Positions 17,189-33,299 of a stretch of DNA of 64,000 nucleotides are shown here, piece after piece (the stretch's first letter is position 1; every line of letters starts with the position of its first letter). The stretch is from Acidobacteriota bacterium (GTDB taxonomy: Bacteria; Acidobacteriota; Terriglobia; Bryobacterales; Bryobacteraceae), in contig JANXSF010000063.1 in NCBI GenBank assembly GCA_025352795.1, positions 1 through 64,000 of the forward strand, written 5' to 3'. The translations under genes were made by a program, and so were the position numbers. The notes under the pieces were generated by a model, which worked only from the letters and a program-made list of their open reading frames with translations, was not told the origin of the DNA and ran no database searches.

Positions 17189-18889
17189 TCAACTTAACGC
17201 TTTCGTAATCAAATCGCCCATCGTGCGGATGGTTGCCGGCTTCCAATTTGGTGCTTGTTGCAAATAGGAATGGCCGTCAGCCCACAAAAGCCCAATCAAA
17301 GTTTCCGCCACAATGCGACCGCCAACCGTCCCCAAGTGCAGCGGTTCTTCATTCCCCTTGCCCGTAATGGACTGCGCCTTTTGAATCCACTCATACTGAG
17401 CTTCAGCCAAAACGTAATACCAAAGTGGCGCTTTCTCAGCGAAACTAGGATGTACCGCCGTCAACCTTGTATTGGTTGCCCAATCTGCCACCTGCGCTTT
17501 CCCCACGCGTAAATTATCGTCAGCAATTGGGGTTAGTCCCATCGCTCTGGCGACGTCCTGTCCACTGGGAAGGCACATAGACCTTCCTCGCAATAAGTTG
17601 CGAGTAGCCAAGTTGGAAGGGCTGTTCACAGAATCCTTCGGCTTCGCTTGCAGATCCTCAACCGTCAACGGTGGATTCGATGGAGCAGCCGGAAGTGAAA
17701 ACTCAGGCAAGAACCCCAGAGGATTCACTAAAGACGTGTCGATCTTGTAAGAAGGCTGAGCCCGCAGCTTCCCTAATTTCGTATTGGAACCGTTGATGTC
17801 GAAATACAAACTCCAATCAATAGCCCATTGCTCAGGAAAAGCATCGAACCCATTCAGCCCACGCTGCTGAACTCCGGCAAATATGAAGAACCGTCCATCC
17901 AAGCCACGGGCCACTTCATCGGGACTCGCTTGCAGAGGATTATCGCCCCCATTCAACCGCGTATTCAAGCGGTAAATCGGCCGCACCATGGAGTGTCCAA
18001 AACGGTAAGCTGCCACAGAAAATTCAACCGGCATGAAGGCGTCTTCGTGTGGATGATAGAACGCGAACTTCGGCAGATTTTTCCAAATCGGTTCGTTCTT
18101 ATCCAAGTGCGGCAGAATCTCATTGACCACTTTTTTACCGCAAATTTTCACCAGAAAATCGTTCACCACCACCCATTGATAATGCCAGCGCACCTGTTGT
18201 TGAATATCGCGGAACGACGCAGCGGGATCCTCATCCACTAACTTGTTGTGAAACTGCATCATGGCCGAATGCAACTGCGAAATAATCACGTTTTCATCAT
18301 TGCGTTTATCGCCAATTAAAGCGCGCCTGGGGCCCATTGGATCTTGTTCGTCATGGAACCGTGGCAAGTCGCGGGAATTCGTCGCTTGATCCAGTTCCAT
18401 TAACGGTCGACCTAAACGGAACTTGTTGCCGTTATACATGTACGGCTGATCATCAGGGCCACGGCCGTAGACCGAATCCAAATCCAACCGCGGGGTCCTG
18501 AAATCCACCAGCGCATTGGGATCATTTTTCTGCTGCAGGCTGGAAGCCGGATCAAAGGTAATATCATGATCAATGAATTGCCCCAAATACGTATAGCCAG
18601 CCGGAATCCCAGAGTTTTCTTCATCGTCCTGAATGTGCTTTTTGGGATCTTCTTTTGAGGCAGAAGGCAACGTGGGGTTATTGGCATCCACTTCAGGCTT
18701 CGACGTCATCTCTACGCCCAGCGCATTCAGCGCCTCGGTTGGCCATTCGGCAGGCGGCAGCGATCTAAAAATCCGGCCAAAGCGGCCCACAAATAGCGAG
18801 GACTCAGCAGTGAACTTGTCCCCTCGAATTCCTCCGCCATGCGCGGACGGACGTTTCTTAGTAGTGATACTTACACCAGGTCTTGGCAT
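17189..18889 (-). CDS. Animal-type haem peroxidase
   Basis: 566 residues of the peroxidase-cyclooxygenase superfamily. The distal haem pocket motif YLGQFIDHDITFDP (about 101-114) carries the distal His and the Asp that binds haem; the segment RNDENVIISQLHSAMMQFH holds the conserved Arg/Glu region; AYRFGHSMVRPIYRLN contains the proximal His. No signal peptide is visible, so it may be cytoplasmic or use another route. Expected chemistry is H2O2-dependent oxidation; the substrate cannot be told. Flanked downstream by the repeat element and accA. Confidence 0.85.
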   Translation of the reverse strand: MPRPGVSITTKKRPSAHGGGIRGDKFTAESSLFVGRFGRIFRSLPPAEWPTEALNALGVEMTSKPEVDANNPTLPSASKEDPKKHIQDDEENSGIPAGYTYLGQFIDHDITFDPASSLQQKNDPNALVDFRTPRLDLDSVYGRGPDDQPYMYNGNKFRLGRPLMELDQATNSRDLPRFHDEQDPMGPRRALIGDKRNDENVIISQLHSAMMQFHNKLVDEDPAASFRDIQQQVRWHYQWVVVNDFLVKICGKKVVNEILPHLDKNEPIWKNLPKFAFYHPHEDAFMPVEFSVAAYRFGHSMVRPIYRLNTRLNGGDNPLQASPDEVARGLDGRFFIFAGVQQRGLNGFDAFPEQWAIDWSLYFDINGSNTKLGKLRAQPSYKIDTSLVNPLGFLPEFSLPAAPSNPPLTVEDLQAKPKDSVNSPSNLATRNLLRGRSMCLPSGQDVARAMGLTPIADDNLRVGKAQVADWATNTRLTAVHPSFAEKAPLWYYVLAEAQYEWIQKAQSITGKGNEEPLHLGTVGGRIVAETLIGLLWADGHSYLQQAPNWKPATIRTMGDLITKALS

Positions 18890-27201: not shown

Positions 27202-27954
27202 GTGACAGCACTCATACTCTCTGGCGGCGGCATGTTCGGCGCTTGGCAGGCCGGTGCCTGGCAAGTAATTCAACCAAAGGTTCCGAAGCCCGATTGGGTC
27301 ATTGGCGCATCTGCCGGATCCCTCAACGCCTGGGCGATTGCTGGCGGCTTAGACCCCCAAATCCTCATTGATCGTTGGCTGCATCTGGAAGCATACCGCC
27401 ATTTTCATTGGCGATTTCCCACAAGTTTCAAAAGCAGCTTGCTGGATCCAGCTCCAGTCTGGGCCGATGTGGAAGAAGTTTATTCCCGCTGCAAACCGAA
27501 AACAAATATCGGCATCGCCATCACTCGCCTGCCTGGGTTGCAAGTGGAAATGGTGGTCAATGAACAAATTACAGCCCGCCACTTAATGGCCTCCTGCGCT
27601 GTGCCGGGTTTGTTGCCTCCGGTCAAAGTGAACGGACATTGGTATTGGGATGGCGGTTTAATGGACGGCCTTCCTCATCGCTTTGGACGCGAAGTAGGTG
27701 CCCAACGGTTAATCTGCATGAACGTCTGGGTGGGTCTGCCTTGGTGGTGGTCGTTGAAAGGAAGTCTATTGCATCGCCTGCATTTAATGCGCCAAGGCAG
27801 CATCGCCGAACCGAACAAGGCCAATTGGATTTACCTGGCACCACCCGCCATGCCCGGCACCTTTCGCGATGCCGCAGTCTGGTCACGCGACAATGCCGAA
27901 AGGTGGATTGATCAGGGCCGCAAAGCAGGCCAGGCAGCACTTACACAGCTATGA
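27202..27954 (+). CDS. Patatin-like phospholipase
   Basis: 250 residues from a GTG at 27202. Oxyanion hole LSGGGMFGAWQAG, nucleophile GASAGSLNAW (G-x-S-x-G) and the catalytic dyad Asp in WDGGLMDGLP. No signal peptide, so a cytoplasmic acyl hydrolase. It stands divergent to the LPS transport gene. Its last codons overlap tail-to-tail by 6 bp with the extended DedA-rhodanese gene (27949-27954). Confidence 0.87.
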   Translation: MTALILSGGGMFGAWQAGAWQVIQPKVPKPDWVIGASAGSLNAWAIAGGLDPQILIDRWLHLEAYRHFHWRFPTSFKSSLLDPAPVWADVEEVYSRCKPKTNIGIAITRLPGLQVEMVVNEQITARHLMASCAVPGLLPPVKVNGHWYWDGGLMDGLPHRFGREVGAQRLICMNVWVGLPWWWSLKGSLLHRLHLMRQGSIAEPNKANWIYLAPPAMPGTFRDAAVWSRDNAERWIDQGRKAGQAALTQL

Positions 27955-28875
27955 AAATTGTTCCGTAGGATAGCCATGCTCCACCCAGCCATCAAACCCG
28001 CCTTCCAGTGGACGCACTTTCATAATCCCTTTACGATTCAGCATAAGCGCCGCACGGGCGCTGGATTTTTCATCCGGTCAAGAACAGTACAGAACAATTT
28101 CCTGGTCGCGTGGAATTTCTACATGCCGCACTTCCAGGTCGCTAAAACTCATTTGTCGCGCACCTGGAATTAGCGATGTCCGCTTAATCTCCCAAAGATC
28201 GCGCATGTCAATAATAAAGAAATCGTGCTGCTCGGAATTCATGCTCTGGTAAAGATCTTCTACACTCAGACGGTTTACCCGAAGCAGATGTAAGAAGCGT
28301 CGTCGCTGATAATACTTCCAGCTTACATACACAAAAAGAATCAGCCCCAACGCCAAGCCCAAGCCCAAACCCAATTTTGCAGCACGCTCCGCAGCCCACT
28401 CCAGTTGACGATGGAACACCATCCCGGTGCCAAGTAACGACCCGGCCCACAGCAGCGATCCTGCTGAATCAGCCAATAAAAAGCGCGTCGTAGACATCCC
28501 CGTCATCCCGGCCAAAGGTGGTGCCGCAGTGGATAGGCCCGGTAAAAATTTCGCCCCAAGCAGCGTGCCCCAGCCGTATCTTTGAAATCCACGCTCTGTA
28601 GTTTTGACGCAGGAATCAGGTTCTAGTGAAAGTCGGCAAAGCAGTTTCAATACTCCACGGCCTTTGGTTCGGCCAAGAAGGAACCACGCGAAATCAGGAA
28701 TCAGACATGCCACCAGCGCACCCAACAAGGCCGTGGGCCATCCATAAAAACCTTGCCCAATCAGGGCACCCATTCCCAGCAGAACAGGCACGGCTGGAAT
28801 CGGAAGGCCTGCCTGTTCTGCAAGCACCCAAATAAAAACCACTGCGTATCCGTATTGAAGAATGAAGTGTTGCAT
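27949..28875 (-). CDS. DedA membrane protein with C-terminal rhodanese; in-frame UGA at the catalytic Cys (candidate selenoprotein)
   Basis: ATG 28875 (TTG 28887 is an alternative). Residues 1-200 are a DedA/SNARE-associated protein: VFIWVLAEQAGLPIPAVPVL, GRTKGRGVLKLLCRLSLEP, FLPGLSTAAPPLAG and four or five helices. From about 215 comes a rhodanese domain (HDFFIIDMRDLWEIKRTSLI; EIVLYCS). At 28078-28080 the frame has UGA, then continues in the same frame for 42 codons (PDEKSSARAALMLNRKG, KVRPLEGGFDGWVEHGYPT) to TAG at 27949. The family normally reads CSCPNE..SA here. UGA takes the second Cys, the one that fits the C-x5-S-A active-site loop. So residue 266 is either selenocysteine or a nonsense mutation. 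It is 9 nt downstream of pirin. Confidence 0.75.
28046..28062 (-). promoter_or_regulatory. SECIS-like hairpin after the in-frame UGA
   Basis: In the mRNA a 6-bp stem AGCGCC/GGCGCU with a 5-nt loop CGUGC begins 15 nt after the UGA (28078-28080), placing the loop 21 nt downstream. Known bacterial SECIS elements have their apical loop about 16-37 nt after the UGA with a G in the first two loop positions, both met here. The stem also codes for conserved residues, so it could be coincidental. Confidence 0.45.
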
Positions 28876-28883
28876 AGTTAAAA

Positions 28884-29582
28884 TCAAGCCAGATCAAACA
28901 ATATAAGGCTGGCTTGTTCAAGGCCAGTAAGATCCAGCTTACTCTCTTCGGACATCGCCGCGCCGTCCCCTTCATCCAGTTGCATGCCATTCAACATCAC
29001 TGAACCACGGGTCACTTGCAGCCACGCAAAGCGGGCCGAATCTAATTGCCGTTCCAACTTTGCTCCCGCAGCAAGGTCCGCAATATAAACATTGGCATCT
29101 TGCGCAATCGGTGGAGTGCCATCGTGTCCATCCCCCGACGCCACCAGTTGCCACTTGCCTTGCCGACCCTCCACCGCAAATTCACGATCTTCAAATCGTG
29201 GCTCAATTCCCTTTTCTGCCGGTTGAATCCACACCTGATAAAAATGCACAGGCTCAGTTTTTGAGTAGTTGTTTTCACTGTGCTGAATGCCCGTACCTGC
29301 AGACATCCGTTGAATCATCCCAGGCTTAAGAACAGCCCGCGCACCAGTGGAATCCTCATGTTCTAATGCACCTTCAAGCACAAAGGTAAGGATCTCCATA
29401 TCGCGATGACCATGGCGCCCAAAGCCTGCTCCAGCCGTAACGCGGTCGTCATTCATCACTCGCAACGAACGAAATCCCATATGGTTGGGGTCGTGGAATT
29501 GGTTGAAGGAAAACGTGTGGCGGCTATCCAGCCAGCTAATGCTGGATCTTCCTCGCTCAACAGACGGACGGATGGTAATCAT
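28884..29582 (-). CDS. Pirin family protein (bicupin)
   Basis: 232 residues. Pirin/quercetinase-type motifs: SFNQFHDPNHMGFRSLRVMN, metal ligands in GFGRHGHRDMEILTFVLEG and GTGIQHSENN, with the conserved FYQVWIQPAEKGIEPRFE. Cytoplasmic iron-binding cupin; members act as quercetin dioxygenases or redox-sensing cofactors. The DedA-rhodanese gene follows 8 nt downstream and is probably in the same transcript. Confidence 0.88.
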   Translation of the reverse strand: MITIRPSVERGRSSISWLDSRHTFSFNQFHDPNHMGFRSLRVMNDDRVTAGAGFGRHGHRDMEILTFVLEGALEHEDSTGARAVLKPGMIQRMSAGTGIQHSENNYSKTEPVHFYQVWIQPAEKGIEPRFEDREFAVEGRQGKWQLVASGDGHDGTPPIAQDANVYIADLAAGAKLERQLDSARFAWLQVTRGSVMLNGMQLDEGDGAAMSEESKLDLTGLEQASLILFDLA

Positions 29583-29683: not shown

Positions 29684-30880
29684 CTAATCAACAACCGCAG
29701 CGTTAGCCATACCCATAAACGCATACTTCACATCTGCTGTACCCGTAGCATTCTGAATCAGAAAAATGCCGATCATGTCTTTCTTCCTATCAATCCACCC
29801 GTGCGTGTTGAACGCCCCACCATGCCCGAATGTCCCCGCAGAAAGTAAGTGGATTTCCCCCAATCCTTCCGGTCGTACCACTTCCCAAGTAAGTCCGAAA
29901 GCAGTGCCAGGCATGTGTCCGGAACGAAGGTCCGCTGTATGAGCACTGGTCATCATGTCCACCGCAGCTCGCGAAAGTAACTGGCGTCCCCCAGATTTTC
30001 CACCGTTCAGCATCATCTGATAAAACTGTAGTAAGTCAGTAGCGGTGGTGTACATTCCCCATTCCGGCGCAGGATATTTTGCACCTTTGCGGAACTGCAG
30101 CGGGTCCCCACCCAGAATGGTGCCATCCGCTTTCGTCAGCTTGCCGTCCATCAATCGGTACACCGGGGCCAAGCGTCCCTGCTTATCTATAGGTAGGAAG
30201 AAATGGCTATCCTTCATCCCCAGCGGCTGAAAAATGCGCGATTCAATAAATCCTTCAAACGGCATGCCTGAGGCCACTTCAATGATACGACCCAAAACAC
30301 TAATGCCAGCGTTGGAATACTGCCACTTGGAGCCAGGTTCAAATTCCAATGGCTGCTGGGAATACATCAGCATGGCTTCGGCCAGCGTTTTATCCATCTT
30401 CTGATTCAGTTCCGCAAAGCCTGTAAAAGGTCCGGAAGACATGCCCGATGTGTGCGTCATGCAATCGCGCACAGTGATGGTGCGCCCAGGTTTATGCAAC
30501 GTCTTTACACCGTCTTTCACTTCAACCATCATCTGCCCACGAAACTCCGGCAAATACTTTTCTACCGGATCACTAATCACCACTTTGCCTTCATCGACCA
30601 ACATCATAATGGCCACTCCCACAAAGGGTTTGGTCATGGACATGATTTGAAAAATCGAATCCTTCGCCATGGGCTTGCCTGCTTCCATATCCTGCATTCC
30701 CACTGCATCAAACTCGGCAATAGTACCGTGCCGAGCAATCAATGTCACCGCACCGGCAATGCGTTTCTGGTCCACAAAGGCCTTCATGCGTTGGGGGATC
30801 TTCGCCAGTTGCGCCGGAGACATTCCCGTATCAGCACCCATTGCCAACGTGGCCAAACATAGGAGCACAAGTGCTTTCAT
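29684..30880 (-). CDS. Class C beta-lactamase-like serine hydrolase (tandem copy 3)
   Basis: 398 residues with signal peptide (MKALVLLCLATLAMGA). Catalytic S-x-x-K in MSMTKPF (Ser about 81), the second motif Y-S-N in WQYSNAGISVLGR, and the third motif H-G-G in FGHGGAFNTHG, as in DD-peptidases, esterases EstB and class C beta-lactamases. The sequence SGMSSGPF lies after the DCMTHTSG segment. Third in a row of paralogues that share MSMTKP, THTSG, LPEF..GSKWQYSN and GHGGA. Periplasmic; substrate unknown. Confidence 0.88.
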   Translation of the reverse strand: MKALVLLCLATLAMGADTGMSPAQLAKIPQRMKAFVDQKRIAGAVTLIARHGTIAEFDAVGMQDMEAGKPMAKDSIFQIMSMTKPFVGVAIMMLVDEGKVVISDPVEKYLPEFRGQMMVEVKDGVKTLHKPGRTITVRDCMTHTSGMSSGPFTGFAELNQKMDKTLAEAMLMYSQQPLEFEPGSKWQYSNAGISVLGRIIEVASGMPFEGFIESRIFQPLGMKDSHFFLPIDKQGRLAPVYRLMDGKLTKADGTILGGDPLQFRKGAKYPAPEWGMYTTATDLLQFYQMMLNGGKSGGRQLLSRAAVDMMTSAHTADLRSGHMPGTAFGLTWEVVRPEGLGEIHLLSAGTFGHGGAFNTHGWIDRKKDMIGIFLIQNATGTADVKYAFMGMANAAVVD

Positions 30881-30886
30881 AGTAAG

Positions 30887-32044
30887 TTAATCCTTAACGG
30901 CTGAAGCCGCAATTTCACGGAACATTTTCTGTTCCGCGAGTGAAGTCAAGGGGAATCGCTGAATCAACAAAATGCCAATCAAGTCTTTACCCGGATCAAG
31001 AAAAGCATCGGTACCGTAAGCACCGCCATGCCCGTAAGCTCCCACTGCTTGCAAAGTAGTTGTGGCCCGTGCATCTTTGGCGACGGTCCAGGTGAGCCCA
31101 TAACCCATGCCAGGACCATGTCCAGCAGGATCAATTGAACCAGTATGCAAGCCCGTCATCGTTTCAATAGATGCTTTAGACAAAAGCTGTTTACCCATGT
31201 AGGAACCGTGGTTCAGCATCATTCGATAAAAAACAACAAGGTCACCAGCGGTGGAATACATGCCGCCTTCAGGCATTGCATACTTCGCCCCCTTGCGGAA
31301 AACGCCGTCACCCAAATCAAACAGCTTGCCGTTCATTGGGGAATACACACGCGCGATCCGCGCGTAGTGTTCAGGCTTTGGAAAGAAGAAACTGTCCTTC
31401 ATGCCTAGCGGTTCAAAAATGCGTTTGGCAAGAAATTGTTCGTAAGGTTGACCACCCACAACTTCAACAATACGCCCTAGCGCAGCCAGACCAGTGTTGG
31501 AATATTGCCACTGCGTACCCGGTTCAAATTTCAAGTTGAGTTGCGAATTGAGCAGGGTAACTTCAGCCAGAGAACGATTCATCAAGGTATAGATATTCGC
31601 CAATGCCGGAGGTCCAAATTCAGGTAACCCGGAAGTGTGAGTCATCAAATCATGAATCGTGATTTTACGCAGCGGAGGACGAAGCTTACCGTTGTCTAAA
31701 AGCTGAAGTCCACGAAATTCCGGCAAGATAGTTTCCACCGGATCGCTAATCGCCAGACGCCCTTCCTCCACCAACATCATGATTGCCGCCCCAGTGAACG
31801 GCTTGGTCATAGACATGATTTCGAAGATCGTGTCCGCGCGCATCGCTGTTTTATTGGCAACGTCGGCAAACCCCGTAGCCGAAAGCTGAACAATCTTTCC
31901 TTGATGTTCCACCAGCGTCACCGCCCCGGCAATTTGTCCCTTGGCAACAAACTCATTCATTCGTTGCGGAATCAAAGCCAGCCGCGCTTCATCCATGCTC
32001 GCCGCAGTAGCCACACTGGCCATCACCACCCATAGACCAATCAA
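30887..32044 (-). CDS. Class C beta-lactamase-like serine hydrolase (tandem copy 2)
   Basis: Active-site motifs MSMTKPF, WQYSNTGLAALGR and GHGGAYGTDAF are intact. The start is uncertain. The frame is open to 32161, inside the upstream gene, but the only plausible signal peptide (LIGLWVVMASVATAAS) begins without an ATG; I placed the start at TTG 32044. The ATG at 32023 would remove the signal. A REP sequence (32051-32075) sits exactly where the original start and ribosome site should be, so it may have disrupted initiation. The end is 6 nt before copy 3. Confidence 0.8.
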   Translation of the reverse strand: MIGLWVVMASVATAASMDEARLALIPQRMNEFVAKGQIAGAVTLVEHQGKIVQLSATGFADVANKTAMRADTIFEIMSMTKPFTGAAIMMLVEEGRLAISDPVETILPEFRGLQLLDNGKLRPPLRKITIHDLMTHTSGLPEFGPPALANIYTLMNRSLAEVTLLNSQLNLKFEPGTQWQYSNTGLAALGRIVEVVGGQPYEQFLAKRIFEPLGMKDSFFFPKPEHYARIARVYSPMNGKLFDLGDGVFRKGAKYAMPEGGMYSTAGDLVVFYRMMLNHGSYMGKQLLSKASIETMTGLHTGSIDPAGHGPGMGYGLTWTVAKDARATTTLQAVGAYGHGGAYGTDAFLDPGKDLIGILLIQRFPLTSLAEQKMFREIAASAVKD

Positions 32045-32050
32045 AAAGCA

Positions 32051-32075
32051 GTGAAACAGGCATCCCTGCCTGTCT
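32051..32075. repeat. REP sequence at the start of a serine hydrolase gene
   Basis: A 25-bp relative of the REPIN arms (core GGCATCCCTGCCTGTC) in the 52-bp gap upstream of the second serine hydrolase. It forms a hairpin ACAGGCA-GGGA-TGCCTGT over the likely translation start region. Confidence 0.65.
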
Positions 32076-32096
32076 TGTAAAGAATTCAACAATCGC

Positions 32097-33299
32097 CTAG
32101 TCAAGTGCCGCCGCCTCCGCCATAGCCCGGAATGAGTCCCGTTCCGTTGGCGTCCCACCAAAATTTCTTTGAATCAAAAATATGCCAATAACCCCACGAG
32201 TAGGATCAACAAACGCATCCGTTCCAAACGCTCCGCCATGCCCGTAAGTCCCTTCAGAACGAAGGTCGGTGGTACCTTGAGCATCTTTCACCACCGTCCA
32301 GGTAAGTCCATAACCCATACCCGCGCCATGCCCTGCGGGGTCAATCGTTCCTGTATGAAGTTGCGTCATAGTATCCACCGACGCTTTCGATAACAGACGC
32401 TTCCCTCCAAATTCACCGCCATTCAGCATCATTGAATAGAACTTCACCAAATCGCCAGCAGTAGAAAAAAGCCCGCCAGCCGGACCAGCCATCTTCGCAC
32501 CTTTGCGCGTGTAATCCACATCAGCCTTCTGTAACTTTCCATCAATCAATGAGTAAGTCATACTCACTCTATTTTGCTTTTCAATCGGTGGAGCATAGTG
32601 AGTATCTTTCATGCCCAACGGGTCGAAAATGCGCCGCTGCACAAACATTTCGTAAGGCTGATCAGACACCACTTCAATAATCCGACCCAGTGTAGCAAGG
32701 CCGGTGTTGGAGTAATTCCATTTCGACCCTGGTTCAAATTCAAGTGGGAGTTGCGAGGCAATGTCCACCAATTCCGTCAGCGTACGTTGATATCGGGTAT
32801 CCTGCACGGGCTTGGGGAAATCAGTAGGCAGGCCGGAAGTATGCGTCATCAAGTCTAGAATTGTGATTGGCCTTGGAGCTTTCTTAATTGTGAACGTCTT
32901 TTCGTCAATCTTGGTTGCCACAAATTTCTCGCGAAATTCCGGCAGATACTTTTCCACCGGATCACTAATGGCCACCTTGCCTTCCTCCACCAACAATTGA
33001 AGTGCCACGCCCGTCACTGGCTTAGTCATGGACATGATTTGAAAAATGGTGTCCGCCTTCATCGGCTTCTTCGCTTCCAGATCCCGATAGCCAACCGCAG
33101 AGACGCGCCCCAAAACCCCATCGCGCGCCACCAGCGTAACGGCCCCCGCAATGGAGCCACGATCAACATAAGTTTGCATCCGCGCTTCAATCGCCTCAAG
33201 ACGCAAAGGGTCAAGTTTGCGAGGCACCGCCGGAGGTGCCGCAAGCAGCAGCGCAGGGAAGGCAGCAACAAGGAAGAATTTGAGTCGCATTTGGAGCAT
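32097..33299 (-). CDS. Class C beta-lactamase-like serine hydrolase (tandem copy 1)
   Basis: 400 residues; signal peptide MRLKFFLVAAFPALLLAA (start MRLKF at 33290 is as likely as MLQ at 33299). Motifs MSMTKPVTG (S-x-x-K), WNYSNTGLATLGR and GHGGAFGTDAF. First gene of the tandem trio; it reads away from the DUF1549 gene with a 259-bp divergent spacer. Likely a secreted esterase or peptidoglycan-related DD-peptidase. Confidence 0.88.
   Translation of the reverse strand: MLQMRLKFFLVAAFPALLLAAPPAVPRKLDPLRLEAIEARMQTYVDRGSIAGAVTLVARDGVLGRVSAVGYRDLEAKKPMKADTIFQIMSMTKPVTGVALQLLVEEGKVAISDPVEKYLPEFREKFVATKIDEKTFTIKKAPRPITILDLMTHTSGLPTDFPKPVQDTRYQRTLTELVDIASQLPLEFEPGSKWNYSNTGLATLGRIIEVVSDQPYEMFVQRRIFDPLGMKDTHYAPPIEKQNRVSMTYSLIDGKLQKADVDYTRKGAKMAGPAGGLFSTAGDLVKFYSMMLNGGEFGGKRLLSKASVDTMTQLHTGTIDPAGHGAGMGYGLTWTVVKDAQGTTDLRSEGTYGHGGAFGTDAFVDPTRGVIGIFLIQRNFGGTPTERDSFRAMAEAAALD

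Follow-up and report, generated by a model that had tools for sequence, protein, structure and literature searches.

An in-frame UGA within a DedA-rhodanese gene

The locus raises the question of whether a UGA codon inside the rhodanese domain of a DedA-family gene ends the protein or is read as selenocysteine (Sec). We analyzed a 64,000-nucleotide stretch of an acidobacterial contig (hereafter, the window), in which this gene occupies 27949..28875 on the minus strand. With the UGA read as an amino acid, it encodes 308 aa from an ATG at 28875 to a TAG at 27951-27949; an alternative TTG start is at 28887, 12 nt upstream of the ATG. Pfam detected a VTT_dom (DedA, PF09335) at residues 26-151 (28423..28800, minus; E 3.3e-13, 50.6 bits, cut-off 33.9) and a Rhodanese domain (PF00581) at residues 204-299 (27979..28266, minus; E 9.2e-13, 49 bits, cut-off 22.2). 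The DedA domain is already complete upstream of the UGA, and the rhodanese domain is interrupted by it. Based on codon comparison among homologues, the UGA (28078..28080, minus) is codon 266 and forms a CxU motif, Y-C264-S-U266-P-D-E. The frame reads ...EIVLYCS-UGA-PDEKSSARAALMLNRKGIMKVRPLEGGFDGWVEHGYPTEQFS-TAG, and the 42 codons from UGA to TAG are as given in the original prediction, with the rhodanese domain spanning the UGA at a score above the Pfam cut-off. The chance of an open frame of 42 codons is about 0.15.

A pirin-family gene (28884..29582, minus; Pfam) lies immediately upstream, and the other flank is occupied by a convergent patatin gene (Pfam), the end of which is overlapped by 6 nt (27949-27954) when the 3' end is read through Sec. 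The pirin, DedA-rhodanese and patatin order was also found at the nearest relative (L149), where the neighbours were named by their likeness to those of the window. UGA is the stop codon of 12 of the 36 long ORFs in the window, the DedA-rhodanese gene included; whole-genome recoding of UGA was considered and is unlikely because UGA ends 11 other long ORFs. A haem peroxidase-like gene (17189-18889, minus) has 80 open codons beyond its TGA; its Pfam match (residues 123-309) stops well short of that TGA, and no match was found beyond it. An Rfam scan of the window returned 0 matches. Three adjacent genes of the beta-lactamase (PF00144) serine hydrolase family are encoded at 29684-33299 on the minus strand, the second and third ORFs overlapping.

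The UGA alternates with cysteine codons and is followed by conserved sequence

Homologues were taken from 70 loci of related genomes and 80 loci of a named genome collection, the sequences being mostly from MAGs. The named loci were retrieved with a pair of peptide patterns, the first requiring Cys at 264 and 266 and the second Cys at 80, and rows were kept if they matched a motif with Cys at 264 and Cys or Sec at 266; the invariance of Cys264 among the kept rows is thus built in. One relative locus (L079) had no match and 15 of the other 69 were dropped, namely five full-length homologues without Cys or Sec at 266 (L057, L059, L061, L062 and L063), one matching the DedA half only (L060), two partial matches, both with UGA (L071 and L074), and seven matching mainly the rhodanese part (L075-L078 and L080-L082). 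The 134 genes kept were reduced to 121 distinct genes (68 Sec and 53 Cys) by removal of 13 duplicates of the 105-nt site region.

In the best 80 of 372 places in the named collection, codon 266 was TGA in 39, TGC in 26 and TGT in 15, thus UGA or Cys (39 versus 41), though one retrieval pattern demanded Cys, so codons other than TGA and Cys could be under-sampled. Among the genome itself and 120 relatives, 37 of 121 had a near full-length match with an internal TGA, which fell in a YCxU or FCxU motif in all 37; the match in G062 has a TAG in addition. The original prediction would have been refuted if close relatives had Cys here and UGA occurred nowhere else. The UGA is kept in the sole same-genus genome searched (G001; 70% identity) and in 35 other relatives. 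A sequencing error is very unlikely, the TGA being present at this site in dozens of separate assemblies.

By the MAG names as deposited, the named Sec loci belong to Acidobacteriota (27), Rokuibacteriota (7), Myxococcota (3) and Methylomirabilota (2), and the named Cys loci to Nitrospirota (25), Acidobacteriota (7), Verrucomicrobiota (7) and Pseudomonadota (2). On a tree of the 121 distinct proteins, built with the site masked, at least 14 switches between Sec and Cys were counted, five of them forced by starred branches. Compared with L149, the 36 codons past the UGA had a dN of 0.133 and a dS of 1.98 (near saturation), and dN was higher, at 0.33, in the 70 codons before the UGA. Judged from these substitution rates, purifying selection persists beyond the UGA and the stretch after it is translated.

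The genome encodes a complete selenocysteine system

The original prediction depended on the presence of selA, selB, selC and selD in the genome, and all four components were detected: a tRNA-Sec (67.6 bits; anticodon UCA, ARAGORN), SelA (493 bits), SelB (387 bits) and SelD (365 bits), each protein above its curated cut-off. The SelD gene (L125:1501-2424, C79) is itself a selenoprotein gene, with an in-frame TGA near the N terminus (KAAG-U-ASK; codon 15, 1531-1533) followed by a strong hairpin (z -3.78).

A tRNA-Sec was found in 32 of the 37 genomes with the UGA-form gene. The other five (G038, G053, G062, G072 and G075; completeness 64-92%) had no convincing tRNA-Sec and had SelB, which in G075 was in two pieces and below the cut-off. 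Matches just above the tRNA-Sec cut-off (48-50 bits, in G046, G053, G062 and G072) were left out of the count because a tRNA-Ser of the window's own genome also passes it, at 47.5 bits. Two Cys-only genomes that are 99-100% complete (G100 and G115) had no convincing tRNA-Sec and no SelB above the cut-off. A tRNA-Sec is present in several Cys-only genomes (e.g., G008, G009 and G064), showing that Sec is not indispensable.

A hairpin downstream of the UGA is tied to the Sec form

A SECIS-like hairpin had been proposed to begin 15 nt past the UGA, with a 6-bp stem (AGCGCC/GGCGCU) and a CGUGC loop (28056-28052), and these coordinates (28046..28062, minus) are correct. Its folding was borne out in part. 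The hairpin is within the minimum-energy fold of a 48-nt stretch, which is not unusual by energy (z -1.42), but in the 82-nt stretch originally suggested for folding (28081-28000, minus) another structure wins (z -0.34). Relative to codon-resampled controls, the mean z was -0.77 for Sec genes and -0.34 for Cys genes. Energy-based folding alone was rejected as SECIS evidence, since the 48-nt fold outdoes its shuffles only modestly and the hairpin is lost in the 82-nt fold. As neither the open frame nor a single-sequence fold is decisive, the case is built on comparative data and on the specific stem and loop.

The inner 5 bp can form in 67 of the 68 Sec genes versus 16 of the 53 Cys genes, and an NG[G/U]NN loop is present in 68/68 versus 23/53; both occur together in 67/68 and 9/53, respectively. 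The exception among the Sec genes (L157) has lost one pair, with GA at columns 20-34. When the amino acids were held to SAR[AV]A, stem and loop were found in 60 of 61 Sec genes and 2 of 10 Cys genes (the latter a small set), and they arose together in 3% of synonymous-codon resamplings of the Sec genes. The hairpin is therefore conserved beyond what the protein requires, which upholds its description as a SECIS-like element. The SECIS constraint can be read from synonymous codons because the Cys forms encode nearly the same residues without the hairpin.

Alignment-based statistics, which are inflated by the relatedness of the sequences, gave a mixed picture: 97.8% of cells were paired in the Sec genes versus 16.9-64.5% when the structure was slid, and changes on both sides of the stem (C-G to U-A and G-C to A-U) affected two pairs in four sequences (L154; L065, L067 and L068), a level reached by 3 of 500 shuffles. 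The covariation score at a slide of -3 (0.102) exceeded that of the structure itself (0.052), further pair types were not above shuffles (85/500), and a tree-based paired test yielded five supported pairs (p 0.06). RNAalifold recovered the hairpin stem from the 68 Sec rows and found no consensus fold in 52 Cys rows. The Cys alignment also had 81.7% of cells paired and beat most shuffles (8/500), because the amino acids favour the stem.

In the available text of PMC1088965, a bacterial SECIS is described as a hairpin just downstream of the UGA with a small apical loop containing G, a description that fits 67 of the 68 Sec genes. The hairpin is thus a good SECIS candidate. One acidobacterial Cys (TGT) homologue (L216:2986-3960) retains the complete hairpin, possibly reflecting a recent Sec-to-Cys change.

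Decoding of the UGA

Given the Sec system, the shared TGA, the purifying selection and the conserved hairpin, selenocysteine insertion, as first proposed for this gene, is strongly supported, and the UGA almost certainly encodes Sec at position 266. The ribosome would decode it by means of SelB, tRNA-Sec(UCA) and the downstream hairpin. A fresh nonsense mutation (TGC or TGT to TGA) or a sequencing error would instead leave a pseudogene or a truncated DedA; Cys codons are one base away, the UGA splits the rhodanese domain and the species is represented by one genome. Such an accident is hardly credible, since TGA occupies this codon in 39 of the best 80 named loci (of 372 places) as well as in 67 further distinct genes, selection past the UGA is purifying and the hairpin is tied to the TGA form.

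UGAC is a leaky stop context, and a near-cognate tRNA (for Trp, Cys or Arg) could read the UGA into the long open frame behind it with no selenium involved. The context, to which the original prediction had given weight, says little, as a C directly follows codon 266 in 66/68 Sec genes and also in 50/53 Cys genes, the next codon usually being CCN. The complete Sec system, the alternation of TGA with Cys codons (other codons possibly under-sampled), the conservation of the hairpin at synonymous sites and the 11 other long window ORFs that end in UGA likewise make near-cognate reading very improbable. The UGA could also serve both as a codon and as a selenium switch, giving a 265-residue DedA protein with a broken rhodanese at low selenium and the full enzyme when selenium is available. 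Both products follow from the anatomy of the gene, with DedA complete before the UGA, but this property would be common to bacterial selenoproteins generally, and we consider a dedicated switch quite unlikely.

Conserved cysteines and an altered site in the DedA domain

The AlphaFold2 model had a mean pLDDT of 90.1 and was least sure at residues 81-90 and 261-270 (74). The matches from the structure search were filled by the rhodanese part, for which the best solved match was 3tp9 (Z 17.4, rmsd 1.4 over 106 residues). From the homologue alignment, a cysteine pair was identified in the DedA part, Cys80...Cys89 (CRLSLEPDSC; 28609..28638, minus). Both cysteines are present in 121/121 homologues with Cys or Sec at 266, of which only the 42 distinct unnamed loci are free of selection by a Cys pattern, and in 0/2 of the genome's DedA-only paralogues; three of the rows dropped earlier, also free of that selection, have Cys80 in 3/3 and Cys89 in 2/3. 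Lys and Arg abound around Cys80/Cys89 and again ahead of the rhodanese domain, on which ground both stretches probably face the cytoplasm.

The second re-entrant segment is AKFLPGLS (residues 108-115; 28531..28554, minus). With positions 109 and 115 placed by the two DedA-only paralogues of the genome, Lys109 occurs in 120/121 homologues and Arg115 in 0/121 (mainly Ser, Asn or Gly, and Ser in the window protein), and position 115 is Arg in both paralogues. Two such Arg residues are essential in COG0586 DedA proteins according to the text available for PMC10127716, and the absence of Arg115 makes a plain undecaprenyl phosphate (UndP) flippase doubtful. E20 (112/121) and D61 (121/121) are retained and, in our reading, may correspond to Glu39 and Asp51 of YghB, the acidic residues of the first re-entrant helix.

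Cys264 and Sec266 as a CxU pair

According to the original prediction, the UGA replaces the catalytic Cys of the rhodanese. Solved rhodaneses are divided on this point: HMMER aligned the Cys of both 6mxv domains with Sec266, and those of 6pfz and 3tp9 with Cys264. By our count against the GlpE loop, the distance to the next helix speaks for Sec266 as the catalytic position. As the alignments to solved rhodaneses disagree, we describe the site as a CxU pair and not as Sec in the catalytic place. The five dropped full-length homologues have Gly or Ser in place of Sec, and Cys264 is kept in four of them, the exception being L061.

These observations bear on whether the protein could be a classical sulfur transferase, with Cys264 as the persulfide carrier, Sec266 tuning or resolving it, and the DedA part acting as a canonical UndP flippase gated by the rhodanese. 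The 6pfz and 3tp9 alignments, the retention of Cys264 in 4/5 homologues without Cys or Sec at 266 and that of E20 and D61 agree with this arrangement, but the 6mxv alignment places the Cys on Sec266, and position 115, which matches an Arg reported to be essential in COG0586 flippases in the accessible part of PMC10127716, is Arg in both DedA-only paralogues and in 0/121 homologues. On balance, we find classical sulfur transfer rather doubtful.

A possible thiol/persulfide redox relay

To profile genomic neighbours, the two ORFs closest to the gene on either flank were clustered for the 80 named loci, with one representative per cluster scanned. With Sec and Cys loci pooled, recurrent clusters were represented by pirin (7 loci), nitroreductase (5 loci), a response regulator with a pyridine nucleotide-disulphide oxidoreductase (5 loci) and YceI (4 loci), and single cases beside Sec genes included DoxX, OsmC, FMN reductase and a DsbA-like thioredoxin. 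Unrelated genes flank some loci as well, among them a thiamine-pyrophosphate enzyme, a short-chain dehydrogenase and, at 5 loci, a dCTP deaminase cluster. The redox-type set suits a role in thiol or electrophile stress. In 17 named Cys loci (e.g., L185:1339-2967 and L197:53-1183), a cluster represented by a BT1-family transporter precedes the fusion gene, and in 12 the next ORF upstream falls in a cluster with a di-haem cytochrome c peroxidase as its representative.

Cys80/Cys89 and the redox-type genes that recur nearby suggest that the protein forms a membrane-bound relay for thiol/persulfide redox chemistry. The product would be a DedA-fold membrane protein (by the predicted fold), with the rhodanese domain and its Cys264-Ser-Sec266 probably on the cytoplasmic side. 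Its most likely chemistry would be thiol/persulfide redox, in which the selenolate takes up sulfane sulfur or reduces an oxidised thiol, a peroxide or an electrophile. Cys264 would then resolve the selenolate as a Cys-Sec bond, and the Cys80/Cys89 pair would pass sulfur or electrons to the membrane domain or take them from it. We infer the relay, its direction and its substrate, and a relay from Sec266/Cys264 to Cys80/Cys89 is offered tentatively, as one possibility. More speculative is the wider proposal of an integral-membrane selenoprotein family, in at least four named phyla, whose selenium center and Cys relay link cytosolic persulfide/thiol chemistry with a DedA fold that handles lipids and has an altered phosphate site; membrane lipid traffic or repair would thereby depend on selenium and redox state.

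Comparison with known selenoproteins and DedA fusions

A CxU rhodanese-like selenoprotein (form 3) is listed in the available texts of PMC13188914 and PMC9312934. The model for this form, NF041203 (rhodanese_LYCAU), has the same C-x-U motif in a rhodanese domain and is a single domain of 126 positions, whereas that of the window protein is fused to DedA; the window protein scored 70.3 bits against it and three relatives 81.5-83.4, with a cut-off of 115. Four of the rhodanese-part-only matches (L075, L076, L077 and L078, from G105, G095 and G103) have in-frame TGA codons in YCTU, FYUQSG and YCWGHDUQLS contexts, resembling the published CxU, UxxG and UxxS forms.

DedA-rhodanese fusions (COG0586 with PF00581) are reported in PMC10127716 and PMC12893004, as far as these texts are available. 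Pseudomonas aeruginosa PA1209, as described there, has the same two domains in the identical order. The first of these texts calls the link between rhodanese and UndP unclear; in it, "selen" was found only in the title of a cited work on selenite resistance, and in the available text of the second not at all. The terms DedA, SNARE, VTT and PF09335 were absent from the accessible text of PMC13188914, and DedA and SNARE from that of PMC9312934. A Sec-containing DedA or DedA-rhodanese was not found in the literature covered, with subscription papers and supplements outside the search, in agreement with the original statement that selenoprotein rhodaneses are known but that none is known to be fused to DedA. 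The gene thus combines a known Sec site with a known fusion, a combination not found in the texts searched. When the UGA is taken as a stop, the second domain is cut, and the family has probably been recorded as DedA with a broken rhodanese.

If the Sec reading is true, a membrane protein is added to the prokaryotic selenoproteome, and why DedA proteins carry rhodanese domains becomes testable because selenium can be traced. Another selenoprotein in which a rhodanese is joined to a different domain is TsoB (NF045694), described as rhodanese/DsbD fusion-like in the available text of PMC13188914. TsoB has two Sec in a UxxxxU motif and a DsbD-like partner, unlike the CxU and DedA of the window protein, which scored 20.9 bits against the rhodanese stretch of NF045694 (cut-off 805). 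The rhodanese fold is also common to Escherichia coli GlpE-type thiosulfate sulfurtransferases (1gmx; Z 14.6, rmsd 2.4 over 106 residues). GlpE has one Cys and a shorter loop, unlike the CxU motif of the window protein. Set beside these systems, the window gene appears to belong to a widespread family of membrane proteins that contain selenium and have so far gone unremarked.
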